Shown here: positions 13,232-23,877 of the stretch, piece by piece | Layout: every line of letters begins with the position of its first letter | Position numbering within the stretch: the first letter of the stretch is position 1 | From: a virus | IMG/VR virus record: IMGVR_UViG_3300045996_000988 | Coordinates: 1-45,248 of that record | Strand: one strand, 5' to 3' | DNA length: 45,248 nt | The notes under the pieces: generated by a model | Database searches by the model: none | What the model saw: only the letters and a program-made list of their open reading frames with translations | What the model was told of the DNA's origin: nothing | Translations under genes and position numbers: made by a program

Positions 13232-16180
13232 ATGCCGTCACCTGAAACCCTAATCTGGCTCGCCACCTTCGCCCACAAGCAGGACACCAAGCCGGCTCAA
13301 AAGGCGCTGCCGTGGGAGCGCGTGGCGGCGCTGCTGCTTACCCACGAAGAACGAGACGAGAAGGACGGTCCGCTGTTCTCTCCCGCGCTCTACAAGAAGA
13401 ACACGCTTCGCAAGAAGGAGAACGTCCACTCCCTCTACCTGCTCGTGATGGACTTCGACGACGGCACGCACTGGGATGCGTTTGCCGAGTTGTGGAGCCC
13501 TTACACCTATCTCGTCTACACCAGCTACTCGCACACTACCGCGCGGCCGCGCTTCCGTGCCGTGTTCCCACTGAAGGAAGCGGTCAAAGCCGAAGACTGG
13601 CCGCGCGTCCACCGGAACCTCGTCACCGCTCTCGGTGGCGGTCACACCGATCCGGTATGTAAGGACGCGAGCCGGATGTATTACCTACCGGCGCATCCTG
13701 CCGGCGCCATTCCGCACACGGAACTGAACGCGGGCGAGTGGTTGGATCCGTTCACCTTCCCTAACGTGGCCGAGCCGGAACTGGAGCGCCGTAACGTCGC
13801 CGCTAACAGGGCTGTGGTGACCAGGAACAGCCGGGTAGACGCCGAGACGCTGATCGTCCGCGCGCTCGATCGCTGCCGCGCTGAAGGCCGCAATCCGGCG
13901 GGCCTCTGGCTGGCGTGTCAGCTTCGGGACAACCTCTACAGCCATCCGGAAGCGGAGACGGCGCTCCAGTCCTACCACGGACGGGTACCGGCGTTCGAGC
14001 GGGTCTACGAGTGGGACGAATGCGTCAACGCGCTCGATCAGGCTTACAGCCAGGTCGCCCGGGAACCGTGGGAAGTCGCGCGGCCCATCACGCTCGCCAC
14101 GCCGGGAGCCAACGGCAAGCACGCCCCGGATGAACCGGACCCGCTCATCATCGCCCGTCAGGCCGTCCTCGACCTGAAGACGGACCGGGGCATCATCTTC
14201 GAACTTAAGAACGCTACGGCGCTCGCGCAGATCCGGCAGTGGGACCCGGCGAACTGGCAGCGGCTCCTCGCGGACATCCGCAAATACGTCTCGCTCACGG
14301 ATTTGAAAGTGGGCCTCGATAAGGTGGCGCCGCGGGAAGAGCCGGCCGAAGAGGGCGAACCGAAGCCGCGACTTGCCGGGGAGTTCCTAGACGAGTGCCC
14401 GGTTCCGCTTGCCATCGTGCCGCACGGCTACGGCCTGAAGGAAGGCGCGACGTGCAAGATCGTGGAGACGGAAGGCGGCGGGAGCGCAATGGCAACCATC
14501 GCCGCAGCGCCGATCCTGATTGCAGCTCGCTGCCGGGACACTCTGACCGCTGATGAGAAGCTCCTGCTGGCCTGGCGGCATCCCGGAGAGAACTGGTGTT
14601 TCCGCCTGGTAGACCGCGACCTCGCGATGGTGTCCCGGCAACTGCCGCTGCTGGCGAAGGCCGGCTTCCCGTTCAAAGAGCGGAACGCGAAAGACGTAGC
14701 GGACTACATCTCGGACCTCGAAACCGCCAACCGTCGCTCGCTGGTGTGTGCCCGGTATTCCAACCATCTCGGCTGGCAGGGCAAGCCGGCGAACGAAGCG
14801 CCGTTCCTCTGCGGCGCCACGCTGATCCTGCCGGATGGAGTAGCAGAAGCGACCTCGGCACTGGACGAAGAGCATCCGGAGCAGTGGCGTCCGGACCGCG
14901 TGATGTTCCACGGGGTAGGAGACGGCGAAGCGCAGATTGTCGAAGCGTTCGGATCCGCCGGCAGCTACCAGCTCTGGGCGCAGGCCGTGAAGGAGCTCCT
15001 GCCCTACCCGCGCATCGCGACGATGTTCTACGCCGGGTTCTGTGCGCCGCTGTTGGACCTCTTCGACGTGCCGAACTTCGTCGTTGACCTCTCGCACTCC
15101 ACGTCCACCGGCAAGACGACTTCGCTCCGGCTCGCTGCTTCCGTGTGGGGAAACCCGAACGAGAACGCACCGTCAACGCTGCTCCATCACTGGAACTCCA
15201 CGCGGGTGTACCTCGAGCGGGTGGCACACGTATGCAGCGGCGCTCCGGTGATCCTGGACGATACCAAGCAGTGCCGAAAGCCCGCGGACATCGCGGAGAT
15301 CATCTATCAGGTGTGTTTCGGGCGCGGGCGCGGGCGCGGGACCATCAAAGGCATCGGTGCCACGCTGCACTCTCGCACTGTGGTTCTTTCCACCGGGGAG
15401 CAGCCGGCGACGTCATTCACGCAGGACGGCGGAACCCGAACCAGGGTGTTGACCATCCGCGGGTTGCCGTTCGGTAAGCGGGAGCCGGAGACGTTCGGGC
15501 CGCTCGCGAAGCGGTTGAACGGGGCGCTGTGCCGCAACTACGGACACGCCGCTATCCGCTTCCTTTCCTGGCTGATGAAGCACCGGGACAAATGGGAAGA
15601 GTGGCGCACGCGCTACGAGGAATGGGTGACGTTCTACGGCGCCGACCCGGGAACCGCGGAAGCGGGACGCCTGGCCTCTTACGCGGCGCTGGTAACGCTG
15701 GCGGGTGAACTCGCTCACCTGGCGCTGCCGGAGCTCGGGCCGTTCAAGAACCCGATGCTGGAGATCTGGCCGGAAGTGGCGGCGGAAGCGTCGGACGCAG
15801 CCGGGGGACGGCGGGCGCTGGAAGACGTGCGCTCCTGGGTCGACTCTCACGAGAAGACGTTTCACGGGCGCACCGGCAGCAACTACTTCAACGGGCAACA
15901 GAGCGGACCTGCAGAGATGTCGGGCCGTTGGGACGATACCGAAGACTGGCCGTTCATCGCTTTCTATCCGACCGTGCTCCGGAAGGTGCTCACCGAGTTG
16001 GGATACCCGCACCCTGACAGCATCCTCGGAGAGTGGCGTGAAGCCGGCTGGCTGGACTGTTTGCCGGGTGCGTTCACCAATCGCGTGTATCTGGCGCCGG
16101 GGAAGTCGCCCCGGATGGTAGCGATCCGACGTTCGGCGTTTGACGCCCTCGAACTGGTCGAAAACGAGCCGTGTTCCTAG
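13232..16180 (+). CDS. Primase-polymerase / DUF927 helicase fusion (982 aa)
   Basis: Residues about 60-160 look like a primase-polymerase-type catalytic domain: L-V-M-D-F-D-D-G (D74, D76), then T-S-Y-S-H-T...P-R-F-R-A-V-F-P-L (about 97-114), then D-A-S-R-M-Y-Y-L-P-A (about 145-154). The C-terminal half is a DUF927-type helicase ATPase: N-H-L-G-W-Q-G near 510, Walker A S-T-S-T-G-K-T near 624, Walker B V-I-L-D-D-T near 673. It probably primes and unwinds DNA at the phage origin. Its stop codon lies inside the first repeat of the iteron array, so gene and candidate origin abut. Ribosome site is weak. Confidence 0.85.
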   Translation: MPSPETLIWLATFAHKQDTKPAQKALPWERVAALLLTHEERDEKDGPLFSPALYKKNTLRKKENVHSLYLLVMDFDDGTHWDAFAELWSPYTYLVYTSYSHTTARPRFRAVFPLKEAVKAEDWPRVHRNLVTALGGGHTDPVCKDASRMYYLPAHPAGAIPHTELNAGEWLDPFTFPNVAEPELERRNVAANRAVVTRNSRVDAETLIVRALDRCRAEGRNPAGLWLACQLRDNLYSHPEAETALQSYHGRVPAFERVYEWDECVNALDQAYSQVAREPWEVARPITLATPGANGKHAPDEPDPLIIARQAVLDLKTDRGIIFELKNATALAQIRQWDPANWQRLLADIRKYVSLTDLKVGLDKVAPREEPAEEGEPKPRLAGEFLDECPVPLAIVPHGYGLKEGATCKIVETEGGGSAMATIAAAPILIAARCRDTLTADEKLLLAWRHPGENWCFRLVDRDLAMVSRQLPLLAKAGFPFKERNAKDVADYISDLETANRRSLVCARYSNHLGWQGKPANEAPFLCGATLILPDGVAEATSALDEEHPEQWRPDRVMFHGVGDGEAQIVEAFGSAGSYQLWAQAVKELLPYPRIATMFYAGFCAPLLDLFDVPNFVVDLSHSTSTGKTTSLRLAASVWGNPNENAPSTLLHHWNSTRVYLERVAHVCSGAPVILDDTKQCRKPADIAEIIYQVCFGRGRGRGTIKGIGATLHSRTVVLSTGEQPATSFTQDGGTRTRVLTIRGLPFGKREPETFGPLAKRLNGALCRNYGHAAIRFLSWLMKHRDKWEEWRTRYEEWVTFYGADPGTAEAGRLASYAALVTLAGELAHLALPELGPFKNPMLEIWPEVAAEASDAAGGRRALEDVRSWVDSHEKTFHGRTGSNYFNGQQSGPAEMSGRWDDTEDWPFIAFYPTVLRKVLTELGYPHPDSILGEWREAGWLDCLPGAFTNRVYLAPGKSPRMVAIRRSAFDALELVENEPCS

Positions 16181-16471
16181 CGTGTTCCTACCAATGTTCC
16201 TATCTAAATCGTTACATTCCAGGCACGTGTTCCTAGTGTTCCTAGTGTTCCTAGCAGAAACACACCCTAAGGGACGGAGCGAGAGAGGGAAAACTAAAGG
16301 CAATCTAAAGGGCCGGGACACTCTCTGAATTTGTCTCGCGCGTATAGAGAAAACCACTAGGAACACTAGGAACACTAGGAACACGGGTAAAAACCGTGCG
16401 TAATTGTAAGGAAGTCAGATAGGAACAAAACAGGGGTCTGCTAGGAACAAATAGACCTTCTACTAGGAACA
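16172..16471. repeat. Symmetrical iteron array, candidate replication origin
   Basis: A 9-bp motif TGTTCCTAG occurs six times forward: 16172, 16183 (ends C), 16195 (ends T), then three in tandem at 16228-16254. It also occurs six times inverted: three in tandem at 16357-16383, then 16419 (starts A), 16441 and 16463. The two tandem blocks make a 29-bp perfect inverted repeat (16226-16254 with 16357-16385) around 102 bases. The region is AT-richer than the genome. Position right after the primase/helicase suggests an origin; a regulator-binding region is the alternative. Confidence 0.7.
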
Positions 16472-16483
16472 AGTTGGTTTGAG

Positions 16484-17392
16484 ATGAGAGTTGGCAGCCT
16501 GTTCGCCGGTATTGGCGGTTTCGACCTGGCAGCGAGCCGAGTTTGGGGTTGGGACTGTGTGAAGTGGCAAGTGGAGATCGATCCCTGGTGCCGGCGAGTT
16601 CTAGCGAAGCACTGGCCTGACGTGCAGCGGCACGGTGACATTCGAGAAGTAAGCGGAGATGAGCTTGAGCCAGTTGACCTTATTTGTGGAGGGTTCCCCT
16701 GCCAGCCTTTCAGTGTTGCCGGGGAGCAGCGAGGCACAGCGGATGACCGCTATCTCTGGCCGGAAATGGCTCGTGTCATCGCTGCCAAGCGGCCCCGTTG
16801 GGTTGTTGGTGAGAATGTGCCTGGCCTACGAAAGCTGGCACTCGACGGCGTGCTATCTCACCTGGAAGATCTCGGTTACACCGTTGCGACGATCAGTATT
16901 CCGGCTTGCGCCCTCGGTGCCCCGCATCGACGTGAGCGGCTCTGGATTGTGGCCTACTCCCGACGCGAGGGACTCGAATGCAGAGGGACTGGAAGCGGGA
17001 ATGCGCCGGATCCAGAAGTATTCGACGTGCGGGCTGCAAACGGCAGCGATCCTATCTTTGCTTCCGACGCCTCGCTCATCGGATGCGGATCGAGGGGGAC
17101 GGGGCGACCTTTCGCTACCGCTAACAGGTCGCCCCGACAAGCACACGGGGGCAATGGGGATGCTGCCAACGCCGACCAAGAGCGACGGGACGGGCGGGCC
17201 GGGCTGTTCGGGGCGCGACGGCGGGGAGAACCTACGCACTGCGATTGGTGGGCAGTTGAACCCGACGTGGGTCGAGTGGTTAATGGGCTATCCGGACGGG
17301 TGGAGCGACTTAAAGGGCTCGGAAACGCCGTAGTGCCGCAGATCCCTGAACTCCTGTTCCGGTGGATAGACGAGATCGAGAAGCAGAGATGA
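16484..17392 (+). CDS. C5-cytosine DNA methyltransferase (302 aa)
   Basis: All key motifs are present: motif I S-L-F-A-G-I-G-G-F-D (residues 5-14), motif IV G-G-F-P-C-Q-P-F-S with the catalytic Cys (near 73), motif VI G-E-N-V (near 110), motif VIII H-R-R-E-R-L-W-I-V-A (near 148), and motif X G-L-G-N-A-V-V-P-Q-I near the end. The target recognition part (about 160-255) is Gly/Arg/Asp-rich and low in complexity. That coincides with a second ORF (16659-17333) in another frame. It probably methylates phage DNA against host restriction. No partner nuclease gene is adjacent. Confidence 0.93.
   Translation: MRVGSLFAGIGGFDLAASRVWGWDCVKWQVEIDPWCRRVLAKHWPDVQRHGDIREVSGDELEPVDLICGGFPCQPFSVAGEQRGTADDRYLWPEMARVIAAKRPRWVVGENVPGLRKLALDGVLSHLEDLGYTVATISIPACALGAPHRRERLWIVAYSRREGLECRGTGSGNAPDPEVFDVRAANGSDPIFASDASLIGCGSRGTGRPFATANRSPRQAHGGNGDAANADQERRDGRAGLFGARRRGEPTHCDWWAVEPDVGRVVNGLSGRVERLKGLGNAVVPQIPELLFRWIDEIEKQR
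16659..17333 (+). CDS. Overlapping ORF inside the methyltransferase gene, 'WPTP' type (224 aa)
   Basis: This second frame is open for 224 codons wholly inside the methyltransferase gene. Its product looks like a real protein: L-T-L-F-V-E-G-S-P-A-S at the start, C-Y-L-T-W-K, three repeats of the form L-W/L-P-T-P-x-x-x-D (near residues 98, 137, 169), and N-P-T-W-V-E-W-L-M-G-Y-P-D-G-W near the end. I recall proteins with these motifs from many phage sequences, where they likewise read across methyltransferase motifs IV to X in another frame. ATG with AAGCGGAG close upstream. Whether it is translated is unknown. Confidence 0.5.
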   Translation: MSLSQLTLFVEGSPASLSVLPGSSEAQRMTAISGRKWLVSSLPSGPVGLLVRMCLAYESWHSTACYLTWKISVTPLRRSVFRLAPSVPRIDVSGSGLWPTPDARDSNAEGLEAGMRRIQKYSTCGLQTAAILSLLPTPRSSDADRGGRGDLSLPLTGRPDKHTGAMGMLPTPTKSDGTGGPGCSGRDGGENLRTAIGGQLNPTWVEWLMGYPDGWSDLKGSETP

Positions 17393-20723: not shown

Positions 20724-21085
20724 GCCTCTTCGCTGATGCGGAACTGGAGACATTGGCACCGGAGCCGAAGGAGAAAGCTCCCTCGTTCAAGATGCCGCGA
20801 CTGCACGGTCCGCGGGAGTTGGTGAACGGCGCGGTGACGTTTCGTTCTCGCCACATCGCCGAGTGCCGGCGGATCATCAAGCGCCGGGAACAGGCCGCGG
20901 AGAAGTGGCGGAACGGCTGTGCGGCGGGAGACACGGAGCGGTTAGAGGCGCTGGAGATGGAAGTGGGGACGATGCGCGGCAACCTGGAGCGGACCCTAAC
21001 GCAGGAGACGGACGCGGAGTATTGGCTGTCGCTCCGCAACCAGGCGATAGACGCGGAGACGTGGCTGAAAGGCGGGGCGAGATGA
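20720..21085 (+). CDS. Hypothetical coiled-coil protein (121 aa)
   Basis: ATGA overlap on both ends. Residues about 45-115 are charged helix (A-E-C-R-R-I-I-K-R-R-E-Q-A-A-E-K-W-R). No family recognised. Its place between resolvase and SNF2-methyltransferase suggests a replication/recombination accessory role. Confidence 0.55.
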   Translation: MSLFADAELETLAPEPKEKAPSFKMPRLHGPRELVNGAVTFRSRHIAECRRIIKRREQAAEKWRNGCAAGDTERLEALEMEVGTMRGNLERTLTQETDAEYWLSLRNQAIDAETWLKGGAR

Positions 21086-23877
21086 AGGACTACGAGGCAT
21101 TCCTACAGCGGAAGCGGAAGGCGGCGGTGCCGACCGGCTTCCTGATCGAGCCGGAGCAGTTGGGGGCGCACCTTTACGAGTGGCAGCGGCCCGTGGTGCG
21201 GTGGGCACTCCGGCGTGGGTGTGCGGCGCTGTTCGAGGACTGCGGGCTCGGAAAGACCGCACAGCAGCTCGAATGGGCGGCACAGGTAGCGGACCACGTC
21301 GACGCGCCGGTATTGATCTTCGCGCCACTCGCGGTGGCGCGGCAAACGCAGGCCGAGGGCGAGAAGTTCGGCATCCCGGTAACGGTGTGCCGGCGAATGG
21401 AAGACGTGCGAGAGGGCGTGAACGTCACCAACTACGACCTGCTGCAGCACTTCCAGCCGGCAGCGTTCGGTGGGATCGTGCTGGACGAGAGCAGCATCCT
21501 GAAGGGTGATGGCACGGTGCGGAAGGCCATCACGGAGTTTGCGGAGCGCATCCCGTTCCGTCTCGCCTGCACGGCCACGCCGGCGCCGAACGATCACCAG
21601 GAGCTCATCAATCACGCGGAGTTCCTCGGCGTGATGCGGGGAGACGAGATCCTCTCGCTCTGGTTCACGCAGGACGGCAACACGACGCACAAATGGCGGC
21701 TGAAGGGTCACGCCCGGGAAGACTTCTGGCGCTGGGTGGCAACGTGGGCGCTCGCGGTGCGGACGCCGGCCGATCTGGGCTACCCGGCTGACGGGTACAC
21801 GCTCCCGCCGATCACCTACGTGCAGCACGTCGTTGATACGGGCGCACCGACCGACGCGCTGTTTCAGGCGGAAGCCCGTGGCATCGCGGAGCAGCGCCGG
21901 GTGCGCCGGGAGACGCTGGCCGCTCGGGTGTGGCTGACGGTTAACATCGTAACTTCTTCGGGCCTAACTGACGCCTGCGGAGGTAAAATTGATGTATGTG
22001 GAAACCAGAATACGCCGCAAGACAACGAGAGAAGTATCGCACTGACCCCGAAGTGCGGGCACGAGTCCGTGCCAGTAATCGAACTCCCGAAGAGAACCGG
22101 GAATACATGCAAGCCTACTACGAGGCCAACAAAGAGAAGTATCAAGAGTACCGACGTGCCAACGCTGAAAAGCGAAATAGGGAACGTCGGGAACGATACG
22201 CAGCCGACGCAGAGTTCCGCGAGAAGTGCAAACAGCACTCTAGGAACCGAGACAAGTCAGCCAAGCGCGACGGGCGGCTCAAAGCGGAGTTCGGAATTGG
22301 AAGCTCCGAGTACGACGCACTGCTTGAGCAACAGGGCGGACGGTGCGCTATCTGTGGCGCAGAGCAGGCCGACAAGCGGGGACATCAACTCCATGTCGAT
22401 CACTGCCACGCAACCGGAGTTGTCCGAGGGCTCCTCTGCGGCGGATGCAACATGGGCATCGGTAAGTTCAAAGACGACCCTGAACGGCTCCGGAAAGCCG
22501 TGGATTATCTGGTGCGAGCTAAATGACGAGCAGGACGCACTAGCGGAAGCACTGGGCGACAGTGCTATCTCCATCTACGGGTCGTTGTCCTCGGACGAGA
22601 AGGAACGAAGAGTTCTTTCCTGGCTCCGAGGGGATCGACCCGTTCTCATTTCAAAGCCATCCCTGATCGGGTTTGGGATGAACTTTCAGCACTGCGCGGA
22701 CGTGGTATTCAGCGGCCTGGGGAACAGCTACGAGAAGTATTACCAGGCCGTCAGGCGGTGCTATCGGTTCGGGCAGAAGCGGCCGGTAACGGTGCATGTG
22801 GTGACGAGTGAAGCGGACGGGCCGATCGTCCGGAACATCGAACGGAAGGAGCAGCAAGCAGTGGAGATGATGAGTGAACTGATCGGACTTACTGATCTGA
22901 CGTGCGCCGCGGCGAGCGCCCGGGAAGAGATGGAATACACCGAGGGTAAGGCGTCCGGTACCGGATGGGATCTGCTGCTCGGCGATAGCTGCAAGACGCT
23001 CGTGGAGCTCAAGACGGGGAGCGTCGGGCACTCGGTGTTCTCTCCCCCCTTCCCGTCGATGTATGTCTACACCAACTCCCCGCACGACATCGGCAACTGC
23101 GCGTCGTTCGAGGAGATGCTGTCCCACTTCCGGTTCCTGATCCCGGAGCTCCTGCGCGTGACGATGCCGGGGCGTTCCTGCTCCGTCCATCTCACCCAGG
23201 CGCTCTCGTTCGTGGGGAAAGACGGCCACGCAGGGATGAAAGACTTCCGCGGCGCCACGATCCGCGCGTTCGAAGATGCCGGCTGGCACTACTACGGCGA
23301 GGTAGCGATCGACAAGAACCCGCAGTTGAAGGCGATCCGCACGAAGGACCGCGGGCTGTTGTTCAAGACGCTCGCGACGGACAGCGCCCATATGCATATG
23401 GCGATGGCCGACTACCTGCTGCAGTTCCGGGCGCCCGGGGACAACCCCGAACCGATCCGCGCCGGCATCAGCGACAAGTATGGGAACCCGGACGGGTGGA
23501 TCTCGCAGGACGAGTGGATCCGTTGGGCGCGTCCGGTATGGTATGCCGCTGACTTCGCTCCGGACGGGGACGGCATCGCGGAGACGGACGTGCTCAACGT
23601 GTCGCAGGCGCGGGACACGAACGACGAGCGCCACCTGTGCCCGCTGCAGCTCGGCGTGATCGAGCGGTCCCTGAAGCTGTGGTCGAACCCTGGCGACCTG
23701 ATCCTCTCGCCGTTCGCCGGCATCGGGAGCGAGGGGTACCAGGCGGTGCGCTTCGGCCGGCGGTTCATCGGTGGGGAGTTGAAGCCGAGCTACTTCCGGC
23801 AGGCGGTTCGCAACCTGAAGCGGGCCGAAGCGATGTCGACGCAGCGTTCCCTCGCGGGCGCTCTGTTCGGGGAGTAA
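21082..23877 (+). CDS. SNF2-type helicase fused to a DNA methyltransferase, interrupted by an HNH insertion (931 aa as read)
   Basis: N-terminal SNF2 helicase: E-D-C-G-L-G-K-T (52-59), L-D-E-S-S (near 135), C-T-A-T-P motif, and R-C-Y-R-F-G-Q-K-R-P near 556. C-terminal DNA amino-methyltransferase: catalytic F-S-P-P-F (near 653) before the AdoMet motif S-P-F-A-G-I-G-S-E-G (near 878), the beta-class order. Such fusions are seen in other phages. Residues about 294-470 are Ser/Thr/Asn-rich and out of character; removing 531 bp (21961-22491) joins T-S-S-G directly to K-P-W-I-I-W-C and restores a normal helicase. Whether the inserted 177 codons are translated or removed is open. Confidence 0.85.
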   Translation: MKDYEAFLQRKRKAAVPTGFLIEPEQLGAHLYEWQRPVVRWALRRGCAALFEDCGLGKTAQQLEWAAQVADHVDAPVLIFAPLAVARQTQAEGEKFGIPVTVCRRMEDVREGVNVTNYDLLQHFQPAAFGGIVLDESSILKGDGTVRKAITEFAERIPFRLACTATPAPNDHQELINHAEFLGVMRGDEILSLWFTQDGNTTHKWRLKGHAREDFWRWVATWALAVRTPADLGYPADGYTLPPITYVQHVVDTGAPTDALFQAEARGIAEQRRVRRETLAARVWLTVNIVTSSGLTDACGGKIDVCGNQNTPQDNERSIALTPKCGHESVPVIELPKRTGNTCKPTTRPTKRSIKSTDVPTLKSEIGNVGNDTQPTQSSARSANSTLGTETSQPSATGGSKRSSELEAPSTTHCLSNRADGALSVAQSRPTSGDINSMSITATQPELSEGSSAADATWASVSSKTTLNGSGKPWIIWCELNDEQDALAEALGDSAISIYGSLSSDEKERRVLSWLRGDRPVLISKPSLIGFGMNFQHCADVVFSGLGNSYEKYYQAVRRCYRFGQKRPVTVHVVTSEADGPIVRNIERKEQQAVEMMSELIGLTDLTCAAASAREEMEYTEGKASGTGWDLLLGDSCKTLVELKTGSVGHSVFSPPFPSMYVYTNSPHDIGNCASFEEMLSHFRFLIPELLRVTMPGRSCSVHLTQALSFVGKDGHAGMKDFRGATIRAFEDAGWHYYGEVAIDKNPQLKAIRTKDRGLLFKTLATDSAHMHMAMADYLLQFRAPGDNPEPIRAGISDKYGNPDGWISQDEWIRWARPVWYAADFAPDGDGIAETDVLNVSQARDTNDERHLCPLQLGVIERSLKLWSNPGDLILSPFAGIGSEGYQAVRFGRRFIGGELKPSYFRQAVRNLKRAEAMSTQRSLAGALFGE
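21961..22491 (+). mobile_element. 531-bp HNH homing element inserted in the SNF2 gene
   Basis: The left flank codes T-S-S-G (ending TCG-GGC) and the right flank codes G-S-G-K (TCC-GGA), so the ends share coding sense and deletion of exactly 177 codons is seamless. It carries 35 bp with a GGAGG ribosome site, then nearly all of an HNH gene in the +2 frame. There is no room for a group I intron core. Ends are inferred to within a few bases. Confidence 0.65.
21996..22526 (+). CDS. HNH endonuclease, endonuclease VII family (176 aa)
   Basis: C-terminal EndoVII/HNH domain: C117-A-I-C120, then H-V-D-H-C-H (D135, H136, H138), R-G-L-L-C148-G-G-C151-N152. Two Cys pairs bind zinc and D-H...N is the active site. 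The N-terminal 95 residues are basic repeats (Y-E-A-N-K-E-K-Y, A-N-A-E-K-R-N-R-E-R-R-E-R), as in free-standing homing endonucleases. GGAGG lies 12 bases upstream. The last dozen residues (K-A-V-D-Y-L-V-R-A-K) are encoded by host-gene bases that also code the helicase motif K-P-W-I-I-W-C-E-L. Probably a homing nuclease. Confidence 0.88.
   Translation: MWKPEYAARQREKYRTDPEVRARVRASNRTPEENREYMQAYYEANKEKYQEYRRANAEKRNRERRERYAADAEFREKCKQHSRNRDKSAKRDGRLKAEFGIGSSEYDALLEQQGGRCAICGAEQADKRGHQLHVDHCHATGVVRGLLCGGCNMGIGKFKDDPERLRKAVDYLVRAK

Follow-up and report, generated by a model that had tools for sequence, protein, structure and literature searches.

A phage gene nested in the +1 frame of a C5-cytosine DNA methyltransferase gene, and its putative role as the small subunit of a two-part enzyme

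Does a phage methyltransferase gene encode a second protein in another reading frame and, if so, what would this protein contribute? The question arises from a locus in the window analysed here, a 45,248-nucleotide IMG/VR virus record (IMGVR_UViG_3300045996_000988), for which the original prediction had described a 224-codon frame nested in a C5 methyltransferase gene. The open reading frames of the window bear out this description. The outer gene (16484..17392, plus strand; called here alpha) encodes a 302-residue protein recognised as the large subunit of a C5-cytosine DNA methyltransferase, and the inner gene (16659..17333, plus strand; called here beta), which begins with ATG and encodes 224 residues of a putative motif IX and recognition subunit, lies entirely within alpha, on the same strand and offset by +1.

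Alpha possesses the hallmarks of C5-cytosine DNA methyltransferases, namely motifs I, IV (PCQ), VI (ENV), VIII and X together with a match to Pfam PF00145, and its complement of motifs is I to VIII plus X, without motif IX. It matched PHROG_363 over its full length (1.2e-79) and its residues 3-159 are similar to M.HhaI (1.3e-19). Because the PF00145 match (8.4e-42) is confined to residues 1-165, which correspond to positions 1-168 of the 324-position profile, and because a motif IX-like block is found in the other frame, alpha does not belong to the single-chain C5 type: the variable region and motif IX are not in the catalytic chain. Alignment to M.HhaI positions motif IV (GFPCQPFS), which carries the catalytic cysteine, at 16691..16714 and motif VIII (PHRRERLWIVA) at 16922..16954; motif X (LGNAVVPQ) is at 17318..17341, all on the plus strand.

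The inner protein contains three motifs of the pattern [WL]PTPxxxD (called here WPTP motifs), LWPTPDARD (16947..16973, overlapping the end of alpha motif VIII), LLPTPRSSD (17058..17084) and MLPTPTKSD (17160..17186), and a motif IX-like block, LNPTWVEWLMGYPDGW, at 17256..17303 (all plus strand), where alpha reads VEPDVGRVVNGLSGR. The repeated LPTP-type motifs and the N-P-x-W-V-E-W-L-M-G-Y-P element of the original prediction are both present, and residues L200-P212 of this block are almost all invariant among 70 relatives. The overlap was said to run from motif IV to motif X; it does span motifs IV to VIII and the variable region, but it ends within motif X, where the beta stop codon lies (17331-17333). 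Beta matched PHROG_1008 (4.9e-39), so other phages have this frame annotated as a gene; no family was found for it in Pfam or NCBIfam. It should be noted that PHROG_1008, PHROG_363 and PHROG_116 are all labelled 'DNA methyltransferase', labels that are silent on the fact that PHROG_1008 shares its DNA with PHROG_363.

Nearly all of the relatives fetched with beta carry it nested in the +1 frame of a methyltransferase gene, and their third frame is rich in stops. Since that set is biased by its query, a second, unbiased set was fetched with only the N-terminal 159 residues of the methyltransferase, yielding 71 distinct genes (window included) in which the +1 frame was scanned from the PCQ motif to motif X. 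Stop codons in the second frame of relatives, to which the original prediction had pointed as counter-evidence, proved to be scarce: the frame was stop-free in 56 of the 71 genes, compared with 1.1% of shuffles in which synonymous codons were permuted within each gene, keeping protein and codon usage, and which contained 5.0 stops on average. Most of the exceptions have one stop close to one end, and the real +1 frame outscored every shuffle by HMM in 71/71 genes. For the window's alpha, 100 synonymous shuffles gave a mean of 4.7 stops in the beta frame and no open frame, and the real frame scored 231 bits, compared with 69.5 bits for the best of 20 shuffles, against a beta profile of 18 rows that includes the window's own protein. 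Across 70 genes, the part of beta that lies over motifs IV-VIII averaged 88.7 bits (32.7 when shuffled) and the remaining C-terminal part 66.4 bits (5.4 when shuffled). A chance open frame is ruled out by these synonymous shuffles.

The two frames also leave their mark on synonymous sites. With a +1 offset, each third codon position of alpha doubles as a second position of beta, and constraint was measured as pairwise identity beyond base composition at fourfold-degenerate codons of alpha; the values given here pool related sequences, with a bootstrap over sequences and not over independent lineages. With the full set (149 genes) the excess identity was 0.05 before beta, 0.31-0.52 inside it (0.40 over motifs IV-VIII, 0.37 in the variable region and 0.52 at the IX block) and 0.12 after its stop codon. 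In the unbiased subset (35 genes) it was 0.03 before beta (95% interval 0.004-0.054), then, inside beta, 0.17, 0.26 (motifs IV-VIII), 0.21 (variable region) and 0.49 (IX block), and 0.16 (0.04-0.33) after beta. Third-position constraint thus rises at the beta start and drops at the beta stop. In the reverse test, constraint on alpha was good over motifs IV-VIII (0.54) and weak in the variable region (0.17), where mean pairwise identity is 0.195 for alpha as against 0.300 for beta. Over motifs IV-VIII both proteins therefore matter, and from motif VIII to the LNP block beta dominates, which accounts for the 'low-complexity' look of the methyltransferase variable region, a fair remark of the original prediction. 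Taken together, the open frames and the synonymous sites demonstrate, at the level of sequence, that each of the two frames is coding and conserved; the proposal of dual coding in a large family holds, with stops depleted in the unbiased set and both frames constrained in the overlapping-gene test.

Two candidate translation starts of beta are found within 16644..16667 (plus strand): ATG 16659, with GAGAAG (16644-16649) 9 nt upstream, and an in-frame alternative, TTG 16665, with GGAG (16655-16658) 6 nt upstream. Beta starts in many relatives resemble GTAAAGGAGTTAGCAAATG. An in-frame start with an upstream Shine-Dalgarno-like element was present in 59% of 104 genes compared with 10% of shuffles, and a start with a 5-base element in 39% compared with 4%.

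The arrangement of the two coding regions differs among relatives. The nested form is found in the window, in Paenibacillus phages and in K1ind3; the annotators of Paenibacillus phage Shelly list the nested gene as 'g55 internal gene' and that of K1ind3 is annotated 'putative Mte8-like protein'. At three E. coli prophage loci, RefSeq lists alpha only while the +1 ORF is open in each, and at one of these loci alpha is annotated as a pseudogene in two pieces. A side-by-side form in which the two genes overlap little occurs in Ashwin (gp7/gp6), Peaches (gp77/gp76) and Heather (gp35/gp36), where alpha stops just past motif VIII and a second gene, whose start overlaps alpha, bears the WPTP repeats, the IX block and motif X; Colucci gp82/gp83 resembles this form. 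Finally, one-frame fusions are found in Babsiella (gp54), in Bibwit (gp4, annotated as two joined pieces), in relatives L285 and L298 and in many IMG/VR relatives. The same beta sequence can be a gene of its own or be joined to alpha in one frame.

Fused forms match PHROG_363, PHROG_116 and PHROG_1008. The 372-residue fused L285 matched PHROG_363 (9e-72), PHROG_1008 over residues 218-369 (3e-57) and PF00145 across residues 1-356. A profile comparison of nested betas with the fusions (E 4.6e-11) aligned WPTP on WPTP and paired LNPxWVEWLMGYPxGW with LNPAFSEWMMGWPAGW, so that the frame-2 part of the fusions carries what reads as the motif IX-like block absent from alpha. The motifs singled out in the original prediction are explained as WPTP repeats and a motif IX block that belong to the C-terminal part lacking from the methyltransferase.

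Structure prediction points in the same direction. The model of the fused chain (pLDDT 71, pTM 0.73), confident over residues 290-360 in the IX-X part (about 88-96) and disordered in the WPTP repeats, superposes end to end on M.HhaI (Z 21.5, 236 residues, 3.1 A, model 1-372 on chain 12-326). Modelled alone with AlphaFold2, beta gave a mean pLDDT of 59 and was confident only for about residues 20-90, which form two helices and a hairpin (24-86); a lone beta that folds this poorly may need alpha. This low-confidence model had no significant structural match among solved folds, and a search of the PDB with the beta sequence returned no relative. A profile of the fused C-terminal part likewise found no C5 methyltransferase motif IX among PDB sequences, and the motif IX assignment therefore rests on position, fold and consensus.

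The reading that we favour, at a probability of roughly 0.87, is a C5-cytosine DNA methyltransferase of two subunits, the smaller one encoded in the +1 frame within the gene of the larger. Alpha would bind AdoMet and catalyse the reaction through motifs I, IV, VI, VIII and X. Beta, translated from its own internal start, would supply the conserved motif IX block that alpha is without; its WPTP-repeat region would probably provide most of the target recognition, and its residues 20-90 would add a further small domain that may serve as an interface. Together, the chains would co-fold into the equivalent of single-chain M.HhaI and methylate DNA, presumably the phage's own, candidate roles being self-protection against restriction or marking for replication. 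We infer that alpha and beta assemble physically, that both subunits are needed and that some part of beta may contact the target.

Three other explanations were weighed against this one. The best placed, though unlikely, is that beta is real and is not a methyltransferase subunit, being an independent overprinted phage protein, for example an anti-restriction or regulatory one. Some fusions lend it a point, as a truncated beta (the N-terminal part with WPTP) is still nested in the +1 frame in L285 (1977-2378), L280 (2100-2498) and L292 (1938-2303), suggesting a role beyond motif IX; these remnants matched PHROG_1008 at 1e-15 to 2e-24 and the C-terminal part lies in the alpha frame, while fused L298 had no nested remnant matching PHROG_1008. 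Set against this, complete single-chain methyltransferases end, in frame, with what is the C-terminal half of beta, and this half completes their fold; in the window, the PF00145 match of alpha goes no further than motif VIII. Less probable still is that ribosomal frameshifting from the alpha into the beta frame, and possibly back, makes one polypeptide in place of two proteins. Such a product would be a contiguous I-VIII/IX/X chain, as in the natural fusions, and in L170 and L226 alpha continues in frame into the motif IX block; however, beta reaches upstream over motifs IV-VIII, where it would be superfluous to a frameshifted alpha and is nevertheless constrained, and the internal start with its Shine-Dalgarno enrichment speaks against a frameshift product. 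The least probable, that the methyltransferase protein sequence and its codon usage merely hold the second frame open with no second protein, draws on a beta N-terminus that partly mirrors conserved alpha motifs (shuffled genes still score about 33 bits against the beta N-terminal profile) and is already refuted by shuffles that average 5 stops and are open in 1.1% of cases, by constraint that sets in where beta begins and falls off at its stop codon, and by relatives in which beta is separate or fused in the alpha frame.

A C5 methyltransferase made of two polypeptides has precedents. According to PMC3404938 (citing Lee, Kam and Shaw 1995), M.EcoHK31I (YGGCCR) is a two-polypeptide C5 methyltransferase whose large subunit contains motifs I-VIII and X and whose small subunit contains motif IX. 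Its predicted target recognition domain is placed on the large subunit, and not on beta as proposed here (PMC3404938). M.AquI (CYCGRG) is likewise a C5 methyltransferase split over two polypeptides (PMC3404938). Unlike the window pair, M.AquI is split in the variable region and has motifs IX and X together on the small subunit, and the actinophage split forms (Ashwin, Peaches, Heather) are closer to it than the window is. Canonical single-chain enzymes such as M.HhaI, whose catalytic domain is homologous to alpha, have one chain in one reading frame. The window pair has the same motif division as the EcoHK31I enzyme, the two being likened by the description of their motifs with the window's motif IX partly inferred. 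The small subunit of M.EcoHK31I is also reportedly encoded in a different frame within the large-subunit gene, so that the window's arrangement, a small subunit within the large gene in another frame, would be a shared feature. The window pair is assigned to this known kind because of the common motif division. By contrast, M.EcoHK31I is part of a restriction-modification system and the window enzyme lies in a phage replication region.

The kind of enzyme is already known; what is new is how far it extends among phages and prophages, and that RefSeq annotation misses it in the three E. coli prophages checked. IMG/VR contained at least 593 matching stretches, and 84,980 species genomes from many phyla contained 439, with nesting checked in part: among the best 80 of these 439, 45 had a complete alpha, the LNP-type motif was in the +1 frame in 45/45 and the frame was open throughout in 33/45. 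No description of nested phage C5 methyltransferases was found in the open-access papers searched, which is weak evidence of absence. The suggestion of an 'overlooked partner protein' is accurate for RefSeq at the three E. coli prophages; in view of the annotations in Shelly and K1ind3, the family PHROG_1008 and the M.EcoHK31I precedent (PMC3404938), the protein has not been overlooked altogether.

We lean, by a small margin, towards a wider view: nested alpha/beta C5 methyltransferases would be a major class that has gone largely unannotated, found in phages and prophages across many bacterial phyla and switching recurrently between nested, split and fused forms, and the beta N-terminal domain, still nested in some of the fusions, would have its own function in assembly, specificity or regulation. 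The locus is a well-supported example of same-strand dual coding over more than 200 codons that has persisted in very diverged phages and bacteria, and it leaves annotation incomplete. For these enzymes, cloning or specificity prediction that starts only from the annotated gene would leave out the subunit with motif IX and probably the recognition region, and a missing beta could wrongly make such enzymes look inactive. The nested, overlapping, adjacent and fused relatives offer a series for studying the origin and resolution of overlapping genes.

Several relatives show further rearrangements. HNH-endonuclease-like ORFs are nested in the methyltransferase gene of L110 (3432-3809), L130 (1929-2318) and L262 (842-1297); in L110 and L130 this ORF follows beta in the same +1 frame as a third overlapping gene, and in Bibwit the HNH ORF is annotated as HNH endonuclease gp5. 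The stops counted in L110, L130, L122 and L170 reflect an additional HNH-like ORF in the gene, a beta of different build or a change of frame, and not a loss of beta. A RERERER run (GA-type repeat) marks the place where the alpha and beta tails switch frame in L119 (3229-3274) and L170 (3241-3260), and in L170 and L226 the alpha frame contains the motif IX block, with motif X read in the third frame; phase variation or frameshifting are possible causes of the frame changes in L119, L170 and L226. A Paenibacillus polymyxa plasmid methyltransferase (L089, 2977-4044) has the LNPxWVE block twice in the beta frame, with a corresponding duplication of the alpha stretch.

In the window, the methyltransferase gene is flanked by genes for a DUF927/HTH protein and a DinG-like helicase, and a scan of seven neighbours revealed no restriction enzyme or endonuclease. 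Further downstream, past the DinG-like helicase, a 1004-residue ORF (20863-23877) combines helicase and N6/N4 DNA methylase domains. All 12 copies of TAGGAACA found in the window (0.34 expected) lie in the intergenic region just upstream of the methyltransferase (16172-16471), six on the minus strand followed by six on the plus strand, with 9- and 22-nt spacings and a perfect 29-nt inverted repeat (16226-16254 / 16357-16385). This TAGGAACA cluster resembles an array of iterons or operators and may be a replication origin.
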